From: a virus
IMG/VR virus record: IMGVR_UViG_3300017717_000064
Location: 1-26,053 of that record
Length of the DNA: 26,053 nucleotides
Strand: one strand, 5' to 3'
Shown: one piece after another, positions 1 to 19,114 of the stretch
Layout of the letters: the number at the start of each line of letters is the position of its first letter
Position numbering within the stretch: the stretch's first letter is position 1
Notes under the pieces: model-generated
The model's input: the letters and a program-made list of their open reading frames with translations, nothing else
What the model was told of the DNA's origin: nothing
Database searches by the model: none
Position numbers and translations under genes: made by a program

Positions 1-273
1 AGTGTGAATCTGGCCTACTGGACCAGTCATTGGCTGAACACCAACAAGTTCGTTTGCGATAACTGTTGGCATCACACGACGGATTACTGGTAAGATAACT
101 TTATTTAAAGTTGCAATGTTGCCAGCCATTGTAGAACCGCTTGCCGCGGCTTCTTGAAGATACTGTTTTGTATTTTCAAGAGTTGACTCCATTACTGCTT
201 TTTTGTTGCCTTCCAAACCGTCAGTTAGAGCGTCTTTTGTAACGTTCCAATTTTCAAATAATGCTTGTGACAT
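1..273 (-). CDS. 23: Major capsid protein gp23, N-terminal 91 codons (partial)
   Basis: The minus strand from 273 reads MSQALFENWNVTKDAL and stays open to the window edge, so only 91 codons are present. The stretch LPVIRRVMPTVIANELVGVQ followed by PMTGPVGQI is the hallmark N-terminal region of T4-type gp23, the hexameric shell protein. In T4 the leader is removed by gp21 after an I/L-x-E motif. Here L39-Q40-E41 followed by Ala is a good candidate cleavage site. The gene follows gp22 after 18 bases, with the ribosome site AGGAGA in the gap. Order scaffold then capsid is the T4 order. The identification is firm. The rest of the gene lies outside the window. Confidence 0.95.
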   Translation of the reverse strand, partial: MSQALFENWNVTKDALTDGLEGNKKAVMESTLENTKQYLQEAAASGSTMAGNIATLNKVILPVIRRVMPTVIANELVGVQPMTGPVGQIHT

Positions 274-291
274 TTTGGTATCTCCTGATTA

Positions 292-1389
292 TTAATTAAG
301 ACCCGCTAATTTGCGGAGGTTAATTATTTCGGCTTCACTATCAGTATCCTGACGCTGTGCCTTGTTTCCTGTAATCTCAGTCTTCTGAGATTCATTTAGG
401 GTTTGTGATCTCTTATCTGCTTTAGAGTCAGACTCTAAAATAGTTGGCAAATACTTGTTGTACTGTACTTTCAACTTTTCAGTTGCTACAGACTCAAGTA
501 GGTTACCCATAAGGTCACGCTTGTCTTTTGCAAGAGGCCCTAGTAGTTCAGCAAGAACTTCAGCTCTCTCGTTTGCTTCAACGATACGAGATGTTTTCTT
601 CTCTGCTTTATTAACCATTTCCTCTTTCTCGGCAACTTGCTGACGTGATTCTTCAAGTTGTGCTTTAACTTTTTCAAGTTCTTTGGTAACTTCCGAAACT
701 GTACTGCCTTCTGCTAATTCCGAACTCATAAACTCTGCCGCGAAAGTTTCGAAGATCTTACGACCAAACATATTTTCTTTCGCCTGCTGAATGTCCTCTT
801 TAAGCATGCCTAGCTCTGTCTTTAATGTAGATTCTACAATATTTGACAATTTATCGCTTGCTTTAGATATGAAATTCTTTTTAGCTTCAGCAATTATTTC
901 TTTACCTTCTTTCACTAGACGAACCTTTTCTTTATTAAGGTCCTTTTTGTCTTCATGAAATTCATTAAGTTCTGTTGTTAGTTGCTCCATTACGAAGTCT
1001 TCTAACTTCTCGAAGTTTCCTTCTTGTAATTTACGATCATCACGTAGTTCTGAAATCTCTTTTTTAAGAGTTTCCATTACAAACTGATCTAGAAGTTTTG
1101 CATGTTCCATCATTTTAGATTGATAATCAATCTTGGCGGCTACTGCATCACGCTTGTCTTCTGAGAATTCTTTAAGTTCTTTTGTAATCGTGTCAGTTAG
1201 CATCGCATCTAGTGCTTCCACCATCTGGTCTTTATCTGCGTCATAACGATTAGCGAACTCTTCTCTTAGGTCTGCTGTGATTTCTTCACGTGCTTCTGCC
1301 AATTTGGCTTCCCACGCTTCAGAAAGTGTAGTGCGTACTTCTTCGGAAAGAACTTCTGAACTTAGGAGTTGTTCTATTGCTGTTGCCAT
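292..1389 (-). CDS. 22: Prohead core scaffolding protein gp22
   Basis: A 365-aa, strongly charged protein that is predicted to be coiled coil almost throughout: long runs of E, K, L and A with heptad spacing, no Cys, almost no aromatic residues outside short spots. This is typical of gp22, the main scaffold around which gp23 assembles and which gp21 later digests. Repeated short units of the type F/L-V-M-E-x-L-K/T-x-E-L/I occur near residues 102-112 and 132-142, suggesting internal repetition. It lies between protease gp21 (1-base TAATG overlap) and capsid gp23, which is the T4 order. The ribosome site AGGAGA sits inside the last codons of gp21. Identification rests on position and composition more than on a diagnostic motif. 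Confidence 0.85.
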   Translation of the reverse strand: MATAIEQLLSSEVLSEEVRTTLSEAWEAKLAEAREEITADLREEFANRYDADKDQMVEALDAMLTDTITKELKEFSEDKRDAVAAKIDYQSKMMEHAKLLDQFVMETLKKEISELRDDRKLQEGNFEKLEDFVMEQLTTELNEFHEDKKDLNKEKVRLVKEGKEIIAEAKKNFISKASDKLSNIVESTLKTELGMLKEDIQQAKENMFGRKIFETFAAEFMSSELAEGSTVSEVTKELEKVKAQLEESRQQVAEKEEMVNKAEKKTSRIVEANERAEVLAELLGPLAKDKRDLMGNLLESVATEKLKVQYNKYLPTILESDSKADKRSQTLNESQKTEITGNKAQRQDTDSEAEIINLRKLAGLN

Positions 1390-2021
1390 TACTTTCTCCT
1401 AATGTCTAGGTTGTCAATAAGTTTAAGTACCTCTTCCTGGAGATACTTTTGTGCTTTTGTATCATTGTTTGTGGCATTTGCGACATCCATCAAAACGTTT
1501 CCACGCTTGCCATTCATGATTGCCTCATAAATGGGATTAGGATATGCATCTGGTGCACTTGGGTTAGCAACGATATCTACAGTTTGTATTTCAAAACCTT
1601 TAACAATACCGTCTCCACCGACTTCACCGCTACCTCTACTTGATACGCCTAGCTTTGCACCGCACTCCAATAGGGTTTTACAAATATTTCCCATTGGGGT
1701 AGGTAATAGTTTTAAGCGTCCATGACCATCGTCACCGTTCATCCACATTCTTTCAATTAAATGTGAAACACGATCTAGATTTACTTGTAAATCTTCCGGA
1801 TGGTCTGCTTCGCCTAATACCGAAAAACCCTCGCTAATTCTTTTAGTAATGCTTTCAACAGCATTTGCTATTTCCTTGCCAGGGTATATTCTTTGATTCT
1901 GGTTACGTTGGTTAGCTTGTACGAAAATGCCTTCCATGTATAGATCCTTGCCGCCTTGACCATTGTCTTTGGCTTCGGTTACAATACCTGCTTGGTCGTA
2001 TGAAAGTCTTTCAATAAGCAT
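1389..2021 (-). CDS. 21: Prohead core protease gp21
   Basis: A 210-aa serine protease of the herpesvirus-assemblin-like fold (peptidase family U9/S78 type). It degrades the scaffold and trims capsid proteins during head maturation. The visible catalytic elements are His74 in GEADHPED, Ser127-Ser128 in GVSSRGSG, and the conserved segment VDIVANPSAPDA (residues 148-159). The N-terminal YMEGIFVQANQRNQN region is the usual first strand. Length is close to T4 gp21 (212 aa). The start at 2021 has the ribosome site GGAG 8 bases upstream, in the end of the preceding acidic core gene, which stops 3 bases before. It is translationally coupled to gp22 downstream by TAATG. Confidence 0.95.
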   Translation of the reverse strand: MLIERLSYDQAGIVTEAKDNGQGGKDLYMEGIFVQANQRNQNQRIYPGKEIANAVESITKRISEGFSVLGEADHPEDLQVNLDRVSHLIERMWMNGDDGHGRLKLLPTPMGNICKTLLECGAKLGVSSRGSGEVGGDGIVKGFEIQTVDIVANPSAPDAYPNPIYEAIMNGKRGNVLMDVANATNNDTKAQKYLQEEVLKLIDNLDIRRK

Positions 2022-3007: not shown

Positions 3008-3208
3008 TTATTCTGCAGAACCAGTATTAGCAGAGTACATTTGTTTGTAGTTGCCAACTTGTTCTATATGATCAGCTTTTGCCATTTCACGCATAGCTCT
3101 CATTTTATTTAGATGTTCTAGCGTTAATTTAGGGCGTCTAGTATCATCAAGTTCCCACTTATGACTCTCATCACCCTCTGCTGTCTGTGCTAGTTCATTA
3201 AACCTCAT
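3008..3208 (-). CDS. Small head protein at the gp67 position
   Basis: A 66-aa hydrophilic protein, MRFNELAQTAEGDESHKW at the start and a basic helical middle (EHLNKMRAMREMAKADHIEQ). It sits between portal gp20 and the acidic core protein, where T4 has gene 67 (prohead core PIP, 80 aa, processed by gp21). The start at 3208 is preferred over upstream ATGs at 3226 and 3211: the sequence GGGAGGTGATGATGAGG puts GGAGG 5 bases before the ATG at 3208. The first 11 residues overlap the last codons of gp20 in another frame. The N-terminus M-R-F-x-E-L resembles short capsid-targeting leaders. Sequence similarity to gp67 cannot be judged by eye, so the assignment is positional. Confidence 0.65.
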   Translation of the reverse strand: MRFNELAQTAEGDESHKWELDDTRRPKLTLEHLNKMRAMREMAKADHIEQVGNYKQMYSANTGSAE

Positions 3209-4865
3209 CATCACCTCCCGGATCATCAGGTACTGGACTATCTGATGTAGTCACTCCACCCTCATCTCCTACTTCACCTTCTTCAGGATTCGCATCATCT
3301 ACTGGTGTAGGAGTAAATCCTTCTATATCTCCGCCTCTAACACCCAATCCGCCTAATGCATTCTGGGCATCAAAGTCTTGAGTATTCATATCGTTGTTCT
3401 CAGCTCTCCACATCATTTCATTTTCAACTAATTCATCTTCCTGTAATCCAAGATATTTCTTCAGGATAAACCTTCTGCTTAGATACGGAACACCCTCAAG
3501 GTTGCTGAATAGTTGAGCTCTTTGTGAATCTAGTTCAATATCTCTATATTGACTAAAGCTCTGTGGTTCTGTAAACGCTAAATCAAATAAACTACTAGGT
3601 ACATCAACACCACGGAATTTAAGAAACATTTTAAATTCTTTATCTAATACTGATTGTAGTATTGCTTGAATACGTTCTACATATTTTGAGAATCTATATT
3701 CTTGAATTAATGCAGTACCCACTCTACCGTCCTGATATGTTGCAGTTCCATCATCTGGTCCTGTTGGAAGATATGAACTAGGTATTCTTAAACCTCTTAA
3801 AAGTTTATTATTAAAATATTTTAAATCGTCAATTTCACCTAAATTATCACCACCCTGTAATACATCAACTTTGGAACCTCTACCTTCTGCTGTTTGTGCA
3901 AAAAAGTAATCTTCCATAATTGATAGTGGATTATAGGCGGCATCCATTACGTTTGTACCACCACCTGTTTTATTAGGAATACGAGTTTGATGTACTTCGT
4001 TTTTAACACGTTCTACAAATGCCATTGCTTTATGAGATGGCATATTACCTACATCAATATAGAACACACGTCTTTCAGGTGCTCGTTGTACACGGTAGAT
4101 AATAATTGAATCTTCTAAAAGTTCTTTCTGTTTGTAAACTTTAAATACGCTTTCTAGTATACTATTACCAAAAGGCCAGTTTACATTCATGCCATCGCTC
4201 AATGCCATGTGTACAACGTGTTTACTATCAACTGCATACTCTGTGTTATTTTGATTATAACCACCATGATATACACCTGCATTAGATTTTGCTGGTGTAG
4301 TATACCCTGATGTTCCATTTGCTGTTGTATTTTGTAATTTACGTGTATCTACAGCAACCATATCCTGTAAATTTAATGCAATATTTTTTACAATATACTG
4401 ATCAATCTCTTTTCCAGCACTTTCATTTACAATAGCACTGCTTACATCTTCTGGATTTACCCAATACAATTTAAATGTTTCGGGATCACGTAAAAAGAAT
4501 TGATCACCATATTTAATTGCAGATCTCATTATGCCAAATGCACGTCTGTGTAATTCGTTTAGGTTACTCCACTGCCTTAGTGAAGTTCCCAATGCTTGCA
4601 CTTCTGCTTCTGTAGCATCATTATTATACTTAATTCTGAACGGAAGTTCCGTATCAGAGTCTTCTTGTGTTCCGAATTCAGCGATTGTATCTAGAGCACC
4701 GTTAATTTCAGCGTCCATATCCATTTGGTCATACTGTGTATAACGCTCTACTCTGTTCGGTTGACCAGAATACACTTCAGGCAACCAGCTCTGCCAGCGA
4801 TTTGCTTTCGCACGGCTTGTACTAGTGTCAGTATCGTATCTGGTAAAATGTTTTTTCCAACTCAT
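3198..4865 (-). CDS. 20: Portal vertex protein gp20
   Basis: A 555-aa T4-type portal protein, the dodecameric ring at the head vertex through which DNA is packaged and to which the tail neck attaches. Diagnostic stretches include SAIKYGDQFFLRDPETFKLY, VQRAPERRVFYIDVGNMP, the loop DVLQGGDNLGEIDDLKYFNN and RGLRIPSSYLPTGPDDG. Length is close to T4 gp20 (524 aa). The extra length is a C-terminal acidic, Pro/Gly-rich tail (residues about 510-555). That tail carries the ribosome site of the next gene in its codons. The start at 4865 has AGGA 9 bases upstream. The gene is separated by 26 bases from the preceding large tail-like gene, and a near-consensus late promoter lies in that gap. Confidence 0.96.
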   Translation of the reverse strand: MSWKKHFTRYDTDTSTSRAKANRWQSWLPEVYSGQPNRVERYTQYDQMDMDAEINGALDTIAEFGTQEDSDTELPFRIKYNNDATEAEVQALGTSLRQWSNLNELHRRAFGIMRSAIKYGDQFFLRDPETFKLYWVNPEDVSSAIVNESAGKEIDQYIVKNIALNLQDMVAVDTRKLQNTTANGTSGYTTPAKSNAGVYHGGYNQNNTEYAVDSKHVVHMALSDGMNVNWPFGNSILESVFKVYKQKELLEDSIIIYRVQRAPERRVFYIDVGNMPSHKAMAFVERVKNEVHQTRIPNKTGGGTNVMDAAYNPLSIMEDYFFAQTAEGRGSKVDVLQGGDNLGEIDDLKYFNNKLLRGLRIPSSYLPTGPDDGTATYQDGRVGTALIQEYRFSKYVERIQAILQSVLDKEFKMFLKFRGVDVPSSLFDLAFTEPQSFSQYRDIELDSQRAQLFSNLEGVPYLSRRFILKKYLGLQEDELVENEMMWRAENNDMNTQDFDAQNALGGLGVRGGDIEGFTPTPVDDANPEEGEVGDEGGVTTSDSPVPDDPGGDDEV

Positions 4866-4896: not shown

Positions 4897-7465
4897 CATA
4901 TTCGGCAGACAATCGAACAGTTTGCTTGGCCTGTTGGAACGTCATATTCTTTAATGCTGTTTTAAATTGTCTAATAACTTCAGGCAGTTCTCCGTCTTCA
5001 CCTTGTATCATATTTGCCATGTATTCGCCCGGTGCTTCGCCATCTGGACCTAGTGTTAAATCTTGTGGTTTTGTAAGACCTGCATTTTCGTTTTCAGCAG
5101 TAACAGCCCTTGATGTCACACCATCAGCAGTAGTCATTGATTCAGCAGTTATAGATAACCCTTGTCCAACATTATAAGAAGCTTCAACAAAGGAACCACC
5201 AACGTCTCCACCGCCAAGGGCGCCGCCTATTGAACTAACACGAACATTTCCAGACGCAATTTCCTGACCAATTTGTTTACCATTAAACATATGTACAGTA
5301 ACACTTGCACCGGCGGCTTCTGTATTATACATTTCCATATAATCACCCTTGCTAAATGTTCTTCTCGTGTAACCTTGTATTGTCGGACTTTGATTATACA
5401 ACACATTTCCGTCTTTGTCAACAAAATTCGTACCTCCACCATCACTAATCAATTGGTAACCATCTGGATAGTAGTCTATTCTTGTTCCGTCGTCTTTTAC
5501 GTCTGATTTAATTGCATCGCCAAGATTACGTGCCATTTGGTTAATGGTTTTAACATAAGAAGGCATATCTGTAATAAGCATTTCTGGACCTTCTTCACCA
5601 ACAAGTGCCATTTCATTAGAACCTAAATATCCACCAATAAACCTTTGCTTCACTGATCCATCTTCATTATGTGAATTTCCATACTGCCTTATCCAATTAC
5701 GTTTACTATGTCCAGACTTTGGCATAGGCATTACTGGTACAGGTGCTTTATCCATTGACTCTAATTCTGCTTGTGCGTCAATTCTTTCTGCTACAGTACC
5801 AGACTTAATTAATTCTTCTAATTTTTTTCTTTTTTCTGTTTCTGTTTCTGGTTCTCCAGTTGATGATGATAGGTCGTCTGCTATATTTTTAATCAGTCTT
5901 GACATATCAACCATGTTTGGAGTCAATGCCTCTTGTGCTTGTAACATTAAAGAAGCCGCACTGTTAACTGCTTGTGTTACCCCGCCCTGTGCTTTTAATT
6001 GTTCACCTGTCTTTTTCTCTAGTTCTGCCATTTCTGTATCTGACATGGTTGCAAGTTTTTTATTTGCGTTTTGGAATCCAGTAAGTCCATTGTTAAGATC
6101 TAGAATAAGCCCACCAACGTTTTTATCAGTTCTCATAATAGAACCTTTTTGTACTTCAAGGTTGGCTATTCCTCGTAGTATTTCTTTTCTCGTCATCTGT
6201 ACAGAAGGATCAATAATACCATCCTGTAATTTTTGCAAAAATTCTGCTCCACCTTCTACAGAATTAAATGCCTGTATGACATCTCGATCCTGTTTGGTAG
6301 TACCAAATGTAAACTTGCCATTTGTTTCAAAGTTTTGTTGTGCCCTTGTAATCATTGACTCCATCATTGGACCAATTTTACCTAATCCGCCTTCAGCGGC
6401 TGGTAACTTGCCCAATAAATTAAAAGTTGATTTTAATGCAACAATATTATCTGCAACTTGACTTCCCATGCTTTCTCTGATTCGCTGGTTAGGTCCTGCA
6501 AAATCTGCATCACTTACTGCTTCGAATGATGAATCAATTAATTGTTTTCTATTAAATGCTGTCGCGGCCGCTAATGAAGAATTTTCAAGCATTAACTGCT
6601 GATATCCTGTTTGTAGACCTGCTCCGCCATTTGCTAATAGTGTATCTGTCTGTCCTGTTAAACGCATTACATCAATATACTGTGCATATGTGTCCATCAT
6701 TTCTTGACTTGTTTGTCCAAAGTCACCATATGCATCATTTGCTCTGTTTAAAGTATTAAACGATTCAGCAAATACAACACTACCTTTAGATATACCATTT
6801 CCTAGTGACTGTACTGCTCTTCCGTATTTGTTAATAGTTTTGGACATTGCGCCATAACTAACGCCAGCCTGATAACTAACTTCTCTTATATGTTGGAAAG
6901 ATTGAGCAGAATCCATAAAGATTGCACCACTATCAATCATAGTAGCCTGTGCTTCTGCAAACTGTTCAATCTTGGCAGATAAAAAACCGCCATATGCAAA
7001 CAATGCATTTGTTGCTATTCCAGAACCTTTAACTAATCTACCTGCCCATTCCTCGTTTATAAACTTAAACTTTTGGAGCATCTTTTCAGCAGTACCACCT
7101 TTTGCATTTGCATTGGCTACAGTATCTTTCATCTGCTTTGCCATATTAGTCATACTTGAAAGTGGTTTACTTGTGTCTCCCAATTGGTTAATAATATTGG
7201 TAGCTCTGCCTACAATGTTTCTTGCTACATCACCTATTGTTTGTGCTTGATTATAGGCACTTTCTCTTTCAACTGATTTAAGTTCACTTGTTGCCTGCTC
7301 TAATCCTTTAATATCATCAGCAGTAACATTCATTGCTTTGATTACAATATTTCTAGCCGCATCATTACTATTAATGACACTTACTAAACTTTGTAAAGTA
7401 GATTCTTTTGCCCATTCAGGAATGGTTACTAATTCACCACCAATAGGTATCTGTAGGTCAGCCAT
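4892..7465 (-). CDS. Large tail-like structural protein B (tape-measure-like, 857 aa)
   Basis: An 857-aa protein with no enzyme motif that I recognise. Residues about 15-45 contain IPEWAKESTLQSLV, closely echoed by LPKWATDDTLMSIV at the start of the upstream 911-aa protein, and other segments match too, so the two look like divergent paralogues. Residues about 150-260 are Ala/Gly/Ser-rich helical sequence. Near residue 617 is ALVGEEGPEMLITDMPSY, a motif very common toward the C-terminus of phage tape-measure proteins. The C-terminal part (from about 660) is Gly/Asp-rich and probably beta. It is coupled to the 911-aa gene by a 1-base TAATG overlap. A tape-measure or tail-lumen role is likely from the motif, but gp29 homology was not established. 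Confidence 0.6.
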   Translation of the reverse strand: MADLQIPIGGELVTIPEWAKESTLQSLVSVINSNDAARNIVIKAMNVTADDIKGLEQATSELKSVERESAYNQAQTIGDVARNIVGRATNIINQLGDTSKPLSSMTNMAKQMKDTVANANAKGGTAEKMLQKFKFINEEWAGRLVKGSGIATNALFAYGGFLSAKIEQFAEAQATMIDSGAIFMDSAQSFQHIREVSYQAGVSYGAMSKTINKYGRAVQSLGNGISKGSVVFAESFNTLNRANDAYGDFGQTSQEMMDTYAQYIDVMRLTGQTDTLLANGGAGLQTGYQQLMLENSSLAAATAFNRKQLIDSSFEAVSDADFAGPNQRIRESMGSQVADNIVALKSTFNLLGKLPAAEGGLGKIGPMMESMITRAQQNFETNGKFTFGTTKQDRDVIQAFNSVEGGAEFLQKLQDGIIDPSVQMTRKEILRGIANLEVQKGSIMRTDKNVGGLILDLNNGLTGFQNANKKLATMSDTEMAELEKKTGEQLKAQGGVTQAVNSAASLMLQAQEALTPNMVDMSRLIKNIADDLSSSTGEPETETEKRKKLEELIKSGTVAERIDAQAELESMDKAPVPVMPMPKSGHSKRNWIRQYGNSHNEDGSVKQRFIGGYLGSNEMALVGEEGPEMLITDMPSYVKTINQMARNLGDAIKSDVKDDGTRIDYYPDGYQLISDGGGTNFVDKDGNVLYNQSPTIQGYTRRTFSKGDYMEMYNTEAAGASVTVHMFNGKQIGQEIASGNVRVSSIGGALGGGDVGGSFVEASYNVGQGLSITAESMTTADGVTSRAVTAENENAGLTKPQDLTLGPDGEAPGEYMANMIQGEDGELPEVIRQFKTALKNMTFQQAKQTVRLSAEYE

Positions 7466-15682: not shown

Positions 15683-16519
15683 TTATTCCTTATTTGGGTT
15701 TGTGGCTTGCCTTGCTTCCCACTCTGCATTAAATGTTCGTGTAAAACTAGGGTTAAGTCCTTCTTCTTCTAATAAGTCGTCTCTGATGTTTTGATTACGT
15801 TTTTCTAAATTGAGAACACGGGTAAAACTGTTATTAACAGCCGCCGTATAATATGCAAATGGGTTTTGACTCTTAGCTTCGTTAAATTGTAATCCAATTT
15901 GACTTAACTGAAGAATAGCCTGCCCACGCATCTCATCCACATACGTATATCCACGCCAGTTACCACGCATACTGTATCTATGGCATAGCATTAGATACAT
16001 TTTTGCTAACTTATCGTTTGTCTTACCATGTGTAACACAGAAATGACCATCTGTCAAGTCTCCTTTCCAGTGGCTCCGTACTACTTCTTTCCAGTTATTA
16101 CCAACAAGTGCATAATGCTTAAATGGTGGGAAGTTTACCTTTGTATGGTGATCTGCCTCGGTTTTGGGTGTGTTCTTCCTATCTTCTCTAGGAATATGTT
16201 CATATGTATTGACTCTCATTACAAGTTCTTTTTCAGTAATTGTATTAGGGTCAATAGCAAATTCAGCGGCTCTTGGTTTACGTTTTTTATCCCATAATCC
16301 CTTCTCCCACTGTAATACTGCTTCTTCATGTGCTAATTTTTGTAATCTTGATGCTCTATTCTGTTTTGCTTCTTCAATTCTATCGTTTGTTATTTCTTCA
16401 ACATTATCTAATATTAAATCATAAAAATAATAATTGTCATCATCACAGTAGCAATAGGTCATCTTAGAATTGTGTATTTCTAACAACATGTCTCTATTGT
16501 TTAGGTAATTTCTTGCCAT
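15683..16519 (-). CDS. 55: Late-transcription sigma factor gp55, enlarged
   Basis: A 278-aa protein homologous to T4 gp55 (185 aa), the sigma factor that directs host RNA polymerase to TATAAATA promoters. The N-terminal NYLNNRDMLLEI matches the conserved start of gp55, and the core is recognisable from residue about 165: GKTNDKLAKMYLMLCHRY, YTYVDEMRGQAILQ, SQNPFAYYTAAVNNSFTRVL (sigma region 2-like). Between them lies an insertion of roughly 130 residues with charged helical and aromatic parts (for example ITEKELVMRVNTYEHIPRED). The start at 16519 has AAGGA 6 bases upstream. It is the first gene of the operon and is driven by a strong sigma70-type promoter. Exact late promoter octamers occur in this same window. 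Confidence 0.93.
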   Translation of the reverse strand: MARNYLNNRDMLLEIHNSKMTYCYCDDDNYYFYDLILDNVEEITNDRIEEAKQNRASRLQKLAHEEAVLQWEKGLWDKKRKPRAAEFAIDPNTITEKELVMRVNTYEHIPREDRKNTPKTEADHHTKVNFPPFKHYALVGNNWKEVVRSHWKGDLTDGHFCVTHGKTNDKLAKMYLMLCHRYSMRGNWRGYTYVDEMRGQAILQLSQIGLQFNEAKSQNPFAYYTAAVNNSFTRVLNLEKRNQNIRDDLLEEEGLNPSFTRTFNAEWEARQATNPNKE

Positions 16520-16588: not shown

Positions 16589-16596
16589 TATAAATA
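16589..16596 (+). promoter_or_regulatory. T4-type late promoter TATAAATA for the baseplate operon
   Basis: An exact TATAAATA octamer, 17 bases before the start of the nucleotidyltransferase gene, with the ribosome site AGGAG at 16603-16607 between them. It faces away from the gp55 promoter, whose -35 box ends 14 bases to the left. gp55 recognises this element in T4. Confidence 0.88.
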
Positions 16597-16613
16597 CAAT
16601 ATAGGAGAACGAA

Positions 16614-17222
16614 ATGCGATATTCCGATTTATTAACCGAAGCAACCACAAATCGTGTCACTGTTTTTTATGGTGGTAGATTTCAACCCATGCATAAAGGA
16701 CATTTTGCATTATACCAGAGTTTAGCACAACGCTTTGGTGCTGACAATGTATTTATCGCCTCCACTTTTGGGCAAAAGCAACAGGCTATGCATAAGTCTG
16801 GTGACTTTACTACTGATCCTTTTACGTTTGAAGAAAAGGCAAGTATTGCAAATGAAATGTTTGGTATTCCAACTGACAAGTTTGTAAACACACTACCTTA
16901 TAGACCTGAACAGGTAAAAGTAGGGAGAAGTGATTCAGAATATGCATTAGTACTTGCATTTAGTGAAAAAGACGCAGGACGTCTTAAATCTGGAGGTGTA
17001 CTTGCACCATTACCAGATGACACAAGCAAATTACAGACACCAGATGAGAATCGTGTATACTTTGTAACAATGCCAGTAAATGAAGGTGGCATGAGTGCAA
17101 CAGATTTTCGTCAAACAATGGCAAGTGAAAAACCTGAAGCAGAAAAGAAAAAAGTGTTCCAAGCGTTTTTTGGTCAAATGAATGAACGTGTATTTAAGTT
17201 TATTGAAAATAGGTTAACATAA
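16614..17222 (+). CDS. Nucleotidyltransferase (HxGH superfamily) with capsid-targeting-like leader
   Basis: A 202-aa protein of the cytidylyltransferase-like nucleotidyltransferase superfamily. The nucleotide-binding signature is GGRFQPMHKGHF (residues 20-31, with H27 and H30 as the H-x-G-H pair), and MSATDFR (160-166) replaces the usual ISGTxIR motif. Such enzymes adenylate or cytidylate small substrates (NMN, pantetheine phosphate, phosphocholine); the substrate cannot be told here. The N-terminus MRYSDLLTEATTNR resembles the T4 capsid-targeting sequence MKTYQEFIAEA, with an L-T-E cleavage motif for gp21, so the enzyme may be packaged and injected. It is the first gene after an exact late promoter and is coupled to the next gene by TAATG. 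Confidence 0.85.
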   Translation: MRYSDLLTEATTNRVTVFYGGRFQPMHKGHFALYQSLAQRFGADNVFIASTFGQKQQAMHKSGDFTTDPFTFEEKASIANEMFGIPTDKFVNTLPYRPEQVKVGRSDSEYALVLAFSEKDAGRLKSGGVLAPLPDDTSKLQTPDENRVYFVTMPVNEGGMSATDFRQTMASEKPEAEKKKVFQAFFGQMNERVFKFIENRLT

Positions 17223-19114
17223 TGGCAGATACATATCCTCAGGGTAAAACCACCGTAACTAAGAAAAAGGTAGTAGGTACTATTTCAGGCCTTAACATGT
17301 ACACTGTTAAGAAAGAAGATCCTGCATACCGTGATATAAAAGCCAAATTAGTTGCTAAAAGATTAAAACGTTCAGGTATTGATGTACGTACAAAAGATAA
17401 TCCTGATGGCAGAATGATTCCAACAGGATATACAACACGAGGCGATATTCGTCTAGTAGATTCCCAAAACACATCACCTGACTATCCTGACGGTAAGCCA
17501 TATGATTATCCAAAAAGCCGTAGTATTCCTGGACACAGTTATCTTAAAAGAAGGCGTGATGAAGGCTATATTGACACTGTTGCCACAGGTAGATATAGAT
17601 CCGGAATCATCGAAGGAACAATTGAACCTGTTGAATCAGCCAAAGGATCTACCTATAATGTAGAGAAAAAAGAAGTTTCAGTAGAAGTAGAGGTAAAGAA
17701 TACAGGTGCCGCAAAAACTGACCAACGTGGCGGACAAGGCACAAGTGATGATAATAAGGATGCTATAGCCGCCGCAGAAGAAGAAAATGCTATAGCAAGT
17801 GGAAGTTCACTTGATGGTTCAGGTGGAGCACACATACCTTCTGGAGGAATTACTCCAAGACAACAGGACGCACTTTCTGGTAGAGGAGAATTTGCTCCTG
17901 ACTCAGAATTTGAAGCACCACCAGGCTCACAGTACGAATCGCAAATCGATGTAGAAAAGGATCCGAATAGAGCACCAGTATTGGTGTTTAATGAACTTGA
18001 TGAGGCGGGCCAAAGAATACCTAATACAGGTGGCATTAAATATCTCACAAAAGAAGAGGCGATAAAATTAAATGAAGAAGGTTTAATTAAAGACAGTTTA
18101 CTTGAAGATCATATAAAAATAATTGATGCTCAGAACAAACTAGCTGATAAAGGTGAGTTTCCATTTGATAGAGAGAAATATATTATTACACCTGATGGTA
18201 AATTAATACCTAAGAACAATGTATCTAAAGATGCAGATGGTAATTATAGAGATATTACAACTGGCAGTGCATTCACAGGATTCGATGGTGAAAATGTCAC
18301 TAAAGAAGAAGTAACAAATCAACCAAGAGGACCAAGAGTAAAACAAAGTATTGCTGGTGTACCTGGAGAACATAAAGTTAGACTATATACAAAAAATCCT
18401 TCATGGTTAGAAAAAACATTAGAAACATTAAAAAAGACTGGCAACGGAATTGTATTTCCATATACGCCAACAATAAACGTCAATCATAGTGCAAACTATG
18501 GAACATATGATATTAATCAAAGCGTTGAACAACCACACTTTTATAGTATGACTCCTAATGTGTCACTTCAGCTGACTGCTGTATTCACAGCAAACACTCT
18601 AACAGAAGCAGAGTATATGCTTGCATGTATGCATTTTTTACGCACAGCAACTAAGAGCGATTTCGGGGCATATAACAATGGACTTAGAAGAACTGATGCA
18701 GGCACACCGCCTCCCGTTCTAGTTTTTAATGGTTATGGAACAGAAATGTTTAACAATATTCCTGTAATTGTTAGAAGTGTAAACTTTACTTTACCTGAAG
18801 ATGTAGATTACGTTTCAATACAAACACAAGCGGCACAATTTTTGGAAGGTGGATTTGTAGACGTAACTAACCTAGATGCAAATGGTAATAATATACAAAA
18901 TGAATTACAAACTCAGGATAATGCCGGTGGCGATATAACTGAATCTTTTGAAAAACAACCAGACGTTAATATTCCAGCTGAGTCATCAACAGTACCAACA
19001 AGTATATTGTTTAGTATTGACCTTGCACCACAGCATCCACCTGGCCAGTTACGTGACGAGTGGAACTTTAAAGACTATGCGTCAGGAGACTTATTGAGGA
19101 AAGGTTATATCTAA
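17222..19114 (+). CDS. Baseplate tail-tube cap protein, gp48-like
   Basis: A 630-aa protein. Residues about 400-545 contain the recognisable part: NGIVFPYTPTINVNHSANYG, YMLACMHFLRTATKSDFG, PPPVLVFNGYGTEMFNNIPV and FTLPEDVDYV. These are typical of the T4-type gp48/gp54-like proteins that cap the baseplate and start the tail tube. The first 230 residues are basic and then Gly/Ser/Asp-rich and probably disordered or extended. Residues 230-340 form a separate charged segment. T4 gp48 is 364 aa, so the N-terminal half is an addition. Flanked by TAATG overlaps on both sides. Whether it corresponds to gp48 or gp54 cannot be settled by eye; the role in tail-tube initiation is well supported. Confidence 0.72.
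   Translation: MADTYPQGKTTVTKKKVVGTISGLNMYTVKKEDPAYRDIKAKLVAKRLKRSGIDVRTKDNPDGRMIPTGYTTRGDIRLVDSQNTSPDYPDGKPYDYPKSRSIPGHSYLKRRRDEGYIDTVATGRYRSGIIEGTIEPVESAKGSTYNVEKKEVSVEVEVKNTGAAKTDQRGGQGTSDDNKDAIAAAEEENAIASGSSLDGSGGAHIPSGGITPRQQDALSGRGEFAPDSEFEAPPGSQYESQIDVEKDPNRAPVLVFNELDEAGQRIPNTGGIKYLTKEEAIKLNEEGLIKDSLLEDHIKIIDAQNKLADKGEFPFDREKYIITPDGKLIPKNNVSKDADGNYRDITTGSAFTGFDGENVTKEEVTNQPRGPRVKQSIAGVPGEHKVRLYTKNPSWLEKTLETLKKTGNGIVFPYTPTINVNHSANYGTYDINQSVEQPHFYSMTPNVSLQLTAVFTANTLTEAEYMLACMHFLRTATKSDFGAYNNGLRRTDAGTPPPVLVFNGYGTEMFNNIPVIVRSVNFTLPEDVDYVSIQTQAAQFLEGGFVDVTNLDANGNNIQNELQTQDNAGGDITESFEKQPDVNIPAESSTVPTSILFSIDLAPQHPPGQLRDEWNFKDYASGDLLRKGYI

Follow-up and report, generated by a model that had tools for sequence, protein, structure and literature searches.

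The window, a stretch of 26,053 nucleotides, is a fragment of the genome of a marine phage of the T4 superfamily. Its minus strand encodes the portal, a 66-aa protein, a gp67-like acidic protein, gp21, a protein of phrog_10922 and gp23, with the phrog_10922 protein occupying the position of gp22. Genes for gp46, gp47 and a late sigma factor are found in the middle of the window, and the plus strand carries baseplate genes. Upstream of these lies the gene for an adenylyltransferase-fold protein (NT), whose N-terminus is the subject of this analysis. The features that bear on it are as follows:

151..159, minus strand: LQE41-A42 cleavage site of gp23 (gp23 gene at 1-273, minus strand)
1389..2021, minus strand: gp21-type prohead protease; PF03420 (Peptidase_S77), E 5e-25
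3008..3208, minus strand: 66-aa protein, between the portal and gp67-like genes; orthologue of PA5oct gp333
15683..16519, minus strand: gp55-like late sigma factor, in divergent orientation to NT; phrog_12791, E 7e-88
16589..16596, plus strand: putative T4-type late promoter core TATAAATA, by sequence, 25 nt 5' of the ATG
16603..16607, plus strand: Shine-Dalgarno sequence AGGAG, read directly
16614..17222, plus strand: NT, 202 aa; PF01467 and phrog_395
16614..16640, plus strand: proposed head-targeting leader MRYSDLLTE, its [LI]-x-E kept in relatives
16674..16703, plus strand: GRFQPMHKGH nucleotide-binding motif (residues 21-30), almost unchanged throughout the family alignment
17094..17111, plus strand: C-terminal SATDFR motif, residues 161-166, from the family alignment
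17222..19114, plus strand: virion structural gene, its ATG overlapping the NT stop codon; phrog_12050, E 6e-46

Genes similar to those for gp53, gp5 and gp25 come after the virion structural gene. The structural gene blocks are interrupted by an ORF that, judged by eye, resembles GIY-YIG (12259-12684, minus strand), and by an HNH endonuclease ORF (23806-24354, plus strand); homing endonucleases interrupt structural blocks likewise in T4-like phages. One of a portal-proximal pair of genes (7465-10200, minus strand) starts at a TTG and encodes a 911-aa protein without a family match, which contains RHDGGMSADLQL..HRGHFDIVG, resembling an M15/VanY-type peptidase signature. The baseplate operon encodes a phage lysozyme (22465-23190, plus strand) with the N-terminus MEFKLSSILTE-Q; its homologue in the relative contig G003 starts with MPRTYTLSNTLSE-N, so that the near-start L-x-E is kept there too.

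The surroundings of NT are highly constant. An [AC]TAAATA core was found at -10 to -40 of the gene in 56/56 relatives, while in a similar window it precedes about 12% of 1609 ORFs in related contigs. This late-promoter core marks virion genes, as it lies upstream of 82/320 homologues of proteins detected by mass spectrometry (MS) in PA5oct, against 14/211 homologues of undetected ones. The late sigma factor is divergently encoded upstream of NT in all 54 relatives with enough sequence, and the same structural gene lies directly downstream in 56/56. Promoter core and constant synteny together indicate that NT is a fixed late gene of the clade, not a stray metabolic gene, and it is predicted from sequence to be expressed late, together with the structural proteins.

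An enzyme domain preceded by a short leader

NT matches CTP_transf_like (PF01467) at 24.8 bits (cut-off 21), along with phrog_395. Both GRFQPMHKGH and MSATDFR, whose SATDFR we take from superfamily knowledge to be ISSTxxR-like, are intact and conserved in the family alignment, and the presence of an HxGH-type motif and a Rossmann-like fold places NT in the CTP_transf_like/HIGH superfamily. An AlphaFold model reached a pLDDT of 86. Its first ten residues score lower than 50, and the domain begins at residue 15; as modeled, the catalytic domain, of the NMNAT/PPAT type, is intact, with a floppy leader outside it.

The best structural matches in VIA-align were PPAT (Z 11.7) and NadM (Z 11.6), and with these two tied, a substrate could not be chosen. 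NT has its fold and catalytic motifs in common with NadM/NMNAT and PPAT (CoaD), but is only 16-20% identical to them, lacks a Nudix domain and carries the extra N-terminal leader. The original prediction had proposed action on a nucleotide-linked metabolite, naming NAD or cofactor metabolism as an example. Its nucleotidyltransferase part stands, given the PF01467 match, while the suggestion of NAD is weakened both by the PPAT/NMNAT tie and by NadV (PF04095), of which no gene was found in nine, possibly incomplete, relative contigs, so that salvage via NadV is less likely. As every NadM-bearing phage in a published survey has NadV, this is a mild argument against plain NAD salvage by NT (PMC9503650). 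The same study argued, on the basis of late-gene context, that myovirus heads frequently carry packaged NAD/ADP-ribose enzymes, which gives the general idea of such packaging a precedent (PMC9503650). PRPP-synthetase-like genes were found in two relative contigs only.

Among sequenced phages, only two orthologues of NT were found, both distant and fused: one in Microcystis phage Mel-JY01 (639 aa; L081:5923-7842) and one in the 484-kb uncultured phage LR756508 (L125; a 919-codon open frame). Their enzyme domains are 27-28% identical to NT. Unlike NT, both proteins are fused to a C-terminal domain whose KxDG and EGIVF motifs resemble those of ligases, and neither has a matching short leader. The homologue from the 484-kb phage carries a ParB-like N-terminal stretch as well.

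The leader MRYSDLLTE-A, with which the original prediction began, was recovered in the ORF at 16614-17222 as described. Positions 16614-16655 (plus strand) encode MRYSDLLTEATTNR, the N-terminus of the 202-aa ORF that ends at 17222, and the first strand of the CTP_transf_like domain comes directly after the start MRYSDLLTE-ATTNR. A cut by gp21 is predicted after E9, between 16640 and 16641. In a structure comparison, residue 1-4 of cellular enzymes of the same fold aligned with phage residue 13-18. Because the cellular chains start at the place of phage residue 13-15, the leader is an addition in NT, and the proposed check on cellular homologues came out in favor of the prediction. A close cellular homologue was sought for the same comparison; the sole match in the genome collection was a MAG contig in which the gene that follows is also the same; this contig was taken as phage and rejected.

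Relatives of NT were dereplicated at 90% identity (n = 44) and, more strictly, at 75% (n = 23). Identity among the 44 is 33% in the first ten residues, compared with 73% around the active site. Despite this rapid divergence, [LI]-x-E after residue 5 was found in 39/44 relatives, where shuffled leaders gave an expectation of 9.5 and 0/5000 simulations reached the observed retention; at 75%, the figures were 19/23 and 5.4. At the level of sequence, retention of [LI]-x-E in the leader is well above chance. The position after the Glu is usually occupied by D, A, S or G. The other five relatives, from four lineages, have lost [LI]-x-E (starts MKLYEFNEMN, MRLFELTNTKN, MRIFEVIKSN and MQIIEVVENN), but their first six residues retain the hydrophobic pattern.

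Leader motifs in T4, PA5oct and other phages

The first ten residues of T4 IPIII suffice for packaging, with residues 4 and 7 governing targeting and residues 8 and 10 processing (PMC9026906). When MKTYQEFIAE is aligned with MR-YSDLLTE, with one gap, the four governing positions are kept, as Y3, L6, L7 and E9 of NT. T4 IPII/IPIII (MKTYQEFIAE-A) and NT share an N-terminus of nine or ten residues with a basic residue 2 and two hydrophobic residues three apart, followed by [LI]-x-E and a small residue, and the phages have a gp21-type protease and the late promoter core in common. The NT leader is, however, one residue shorter and fast-diverging, its targeting and cleavage are predicted, and its cargo is an adenylyltransferase-fold enzyme rather than a small anti-restriction protein. 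Few injected phage enzymes are known, with T4 Alt as the model. Alt, an ADP-ribosyltransferase starting with MELITELFDE-D, is packaged and injected, and NT would likewise be a head-borne enzyme of nucleotide chemistry; the two are unrelated in sequence and fold, and packaging is established for Alt but proposed for NT.

The further elements named in the original prediction, a gp21 gene in the window and an LQE-A site in gp23, were both found, the former by its Peptidase_S77 match. This gp21 is 58% identical to the protease of PA5oct, which together with the Rak2-like group is the closest among sequenced phages. In the clade, 11/11 gp23 proteins have L-x-E at the cleavage position near the N-terminus, with A, S, T or N after it, and by analogy gp21 of the clade therefore plausibly shares the L-x-E specificity of the T4 protease.

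The 66-aa protein encoded near the portal starts with MRFNELAQTAEGD, which has the hexapeptide pattern of the NT leader without [LI]-x-E; its MRFNELAQ matches MRYSDLLT in kind at each position. Among relatives, the hexapeptide pattern is present in 28/28, and [LI]-x-E in only 3/28. For this ORF, the program-called start at 3226 probably lies too far upstream. Its PA5oct orthologue, gp333 (MKINDIITEGYY), was detected by MS in virions. Both gp333 (MKINDIITEG) and the likewise MS-detected gp246 (MKIKDILVES) show the leader pattern of NT in a phage with a related gp21, although PA5oct has no orthologue of NT. The PA5oct cytidyltransferase gp177 (MSILTSILNN) was considered and dismissed, being neither MS-detected nor an NT orthologue and carrying no such leader.

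How far such leaders identify head proteins depends on the pattern used. The original prediction had proposed a genome-wide search with the loose motif M-x(3-9)-[LI]-x-E. In T4, this motif fits 35/251 first methionines (14%) versus 59/812 internal ones, about twice the background. Most of the T4 proteins it fits are non-head proteins, cytoplasmic ones (for example ligase, Dda, UvsY and RNase H) included, and only about six of the 35 (IPII, IPIII, Alt, gp24, gp22 and gp21) are known gp21 substrates. In PA5oct, the motif did not separate MS-detected virion proteins (13/93) from others (33/325; p=0.2). The loose motif was discarded as a detector, as too unspecific in both phages, and a search using it would not support the claim alone. 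Pattern P2 (M[KR].{1,3}x[LIVFM].xE) was also dropped, with 3/93 vs 3/325 in PA5oct, an enrichment that is not significant.

A tight pattern, M[KRH][ILVFYM]x[DENQ][ILVFM]..E (that is, M[KRH]-Phi-x-[DENQ]-Phi..E), gave 7/93 MS-detected against 1/325 other proteins in PA5oct (Fisher p=1.5e-4), a value that is optimistic since the pattern, taken from marine leaders, was given its final form with knowledge of the PA5oct list. The virion set here comprises all proteins flagged as detected by ESI-MS/MS in the PA5oct record, heads and tails together. The annotated sheath, tube, fibre and baseplate proteins of PA5oct do not carry the pattern, a weak result given how few tail proteins there are. In CBB, with the pattern fixed beforehand, 1/55 MS-detected proteins and 2/545 others were tagged; of these three, one was the MS-detected gp299 and one is annotated as virion structural. 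Similarly, for Atu_ph07, where the prediction was written down before the test, 4/9 tagged genes fell within three published virion clusters, with 1.7 expected (p about 0.08). The nine tagged genes are gp043, gp047, gp063, gp199, gp480, gp487, gp548, gp561 and gp672. CBB and Atu_ph07 thus agree with PA5oct only weakly, in direction and not in strength. In T4, the tight pattern picks UvsY, which is not a virion protein. In the set of papers searched for capsid-targeting sequences beyond T4 and the giant phages, nothing was found on this clade.

Head packaging and its alternatives

The leader of NT, its absence from cellular enzymes, its sharing with PA5oct virion proteins and the late promoter core fit a capsid-targeting sequence of the T4 type. 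The reading as a T4-type leader is accordingly borne out in these respects, and it is weakened by the 5/44 relatives without [LI]-x-E and by the location of the gene beside baseplate genes. We regard head packaging as the leading explanation, giving it slightly less than an even chance on the sequence evidence. In the proposed mechanism, gp55-type late transcription, suggested by the observed core and synteny, would make NT alongside the structural proteins. Residues 1-6 (M-R-Y-S-D-L) may then bind the assembling prohead core, with Y3 and L6 keeping the spacing of the T4 IPIII targeting residues 4 and 7. gp21 would cut after L-T-E9, L7 and E9 corresponding to T4 processing residues 8 and 10, and free the enzyme within the head. 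The intact enzyme could then exit with the DNA and, on reaching the new host, immediately adenylylate a nucleotide-linked metabolite; its injection is conjectural, as is any NAD chemistry.

The strongest competing explanation, which we consider unlikely while still giving it real weight, is that NT stays in the cytoplasm and acts late, on a cofactor or nucleotide in the infected cell, its N-terminus being an ordinary flexible helix or a docking or dimer element. The intact active-site motifs are in keeping with such a role, as are the frequency of the loose motif on cytoplasmic T4 proteins, the variable length of the leader and the loss of [LI]-x-E in four lineages. What it leaves unexplained is a retained pattern for which shuffling cannot account, the occurrence of the leader on unrelated proteins, several of them of the virion, and the fact that the late promoter core and the adjacent structural gene are both constant.

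Alternatively, NT could be a baseplate or tail-associated protein, produced along with the tail and incorporated into it, the NT gene being the first of the tail operon. Some enzymes have been reported in the T4 baseplate, and the overlap of the NT stop codon with the start of a virion structural gene, the gp53-, gp5- and gp25-like genes beyond it and the 56/56 downstream synteny point the same way. Against this, the leader pattern is shared with the protein encoded between the portal and the gp67-like gene, and is missing, as far as the few PA5oct tail proteins can tell, from sheath, tube, fibre and baseplate; we consider a tail location improbable. That an L-x-E within ten residues of the start is a meaningless resemblance, as the 14% of T4 starts with the loose motif and its lack of enrichment in PA5oct might suggest, is very improbable in view of the 39/44 relatives and the simulations above.

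Should head packaging be correct and the tag real, a cofactor-type adenylyltransferase would act as soon as infection begins, perhaps against nucleotide-based host defences. In addition, one short pattern would then allow candidate injected proteins, enzymes included, to be listed from uncultured marine phage genomes alone.

Tagged proteins in related contigs

A count of the hexapeptide pattern over eleven relative contigs of the marine clade gave 42 occurrences, with 5.2 expected from shuffling; with NT and the 66-aa core protein left out, the count was 30 against 4.8. The relative contigs contain a number of tagged genes with other functions. G001 encodes a tagged zeta-toxin/AAA-like kinase, and G003 a tagged protein (MKSYKEYLKES) whose gene has the late promoter core and whose family is filed in PHROG as a virion structural protein, with internal head protein at a weak score. 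We tentatively propose, with less confidence than for the packaging of NT itself, that in marine and jumbo phages of the T4 superfamily (PA5oct/Rak2-like) a whole set of cargo proteins packaged into the head bears the degenerate N-terminal tag M-[KR]-Phi-x-[DENQ]-Phi-..E, enzymes included: NT, a deoxyribonucleotidase and possibly the zeta-toxin-like kinase.

The deoxyribonucleotidase, a 5'-3' enzyme, is encoded in G010. It starts with MKINQIINE-A and continues directly into its catalytic domain, the same layout as in NT, and the neighbouring gene encodes a 1075-aa protein homologous to an MS-detected PA5oct protein. A 19-kb stretch of G010 holds about a dozen genes for proteins with unrelated bodies and a common leader, examples being MRINEV, MKVNEIV, MRINEII, MKISEIV, MRINEIT and MKINQII. 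This stretch (L325:13832 to L326:11171, about 189-206 kb) resembles a tagged cargo locus. Unrelated proteins with near-identical octapeptide starts (MRLIDLLES, MRLIDLLED and MRLIDLLEH) were also seen in Atu_ph07 (L355-L380).
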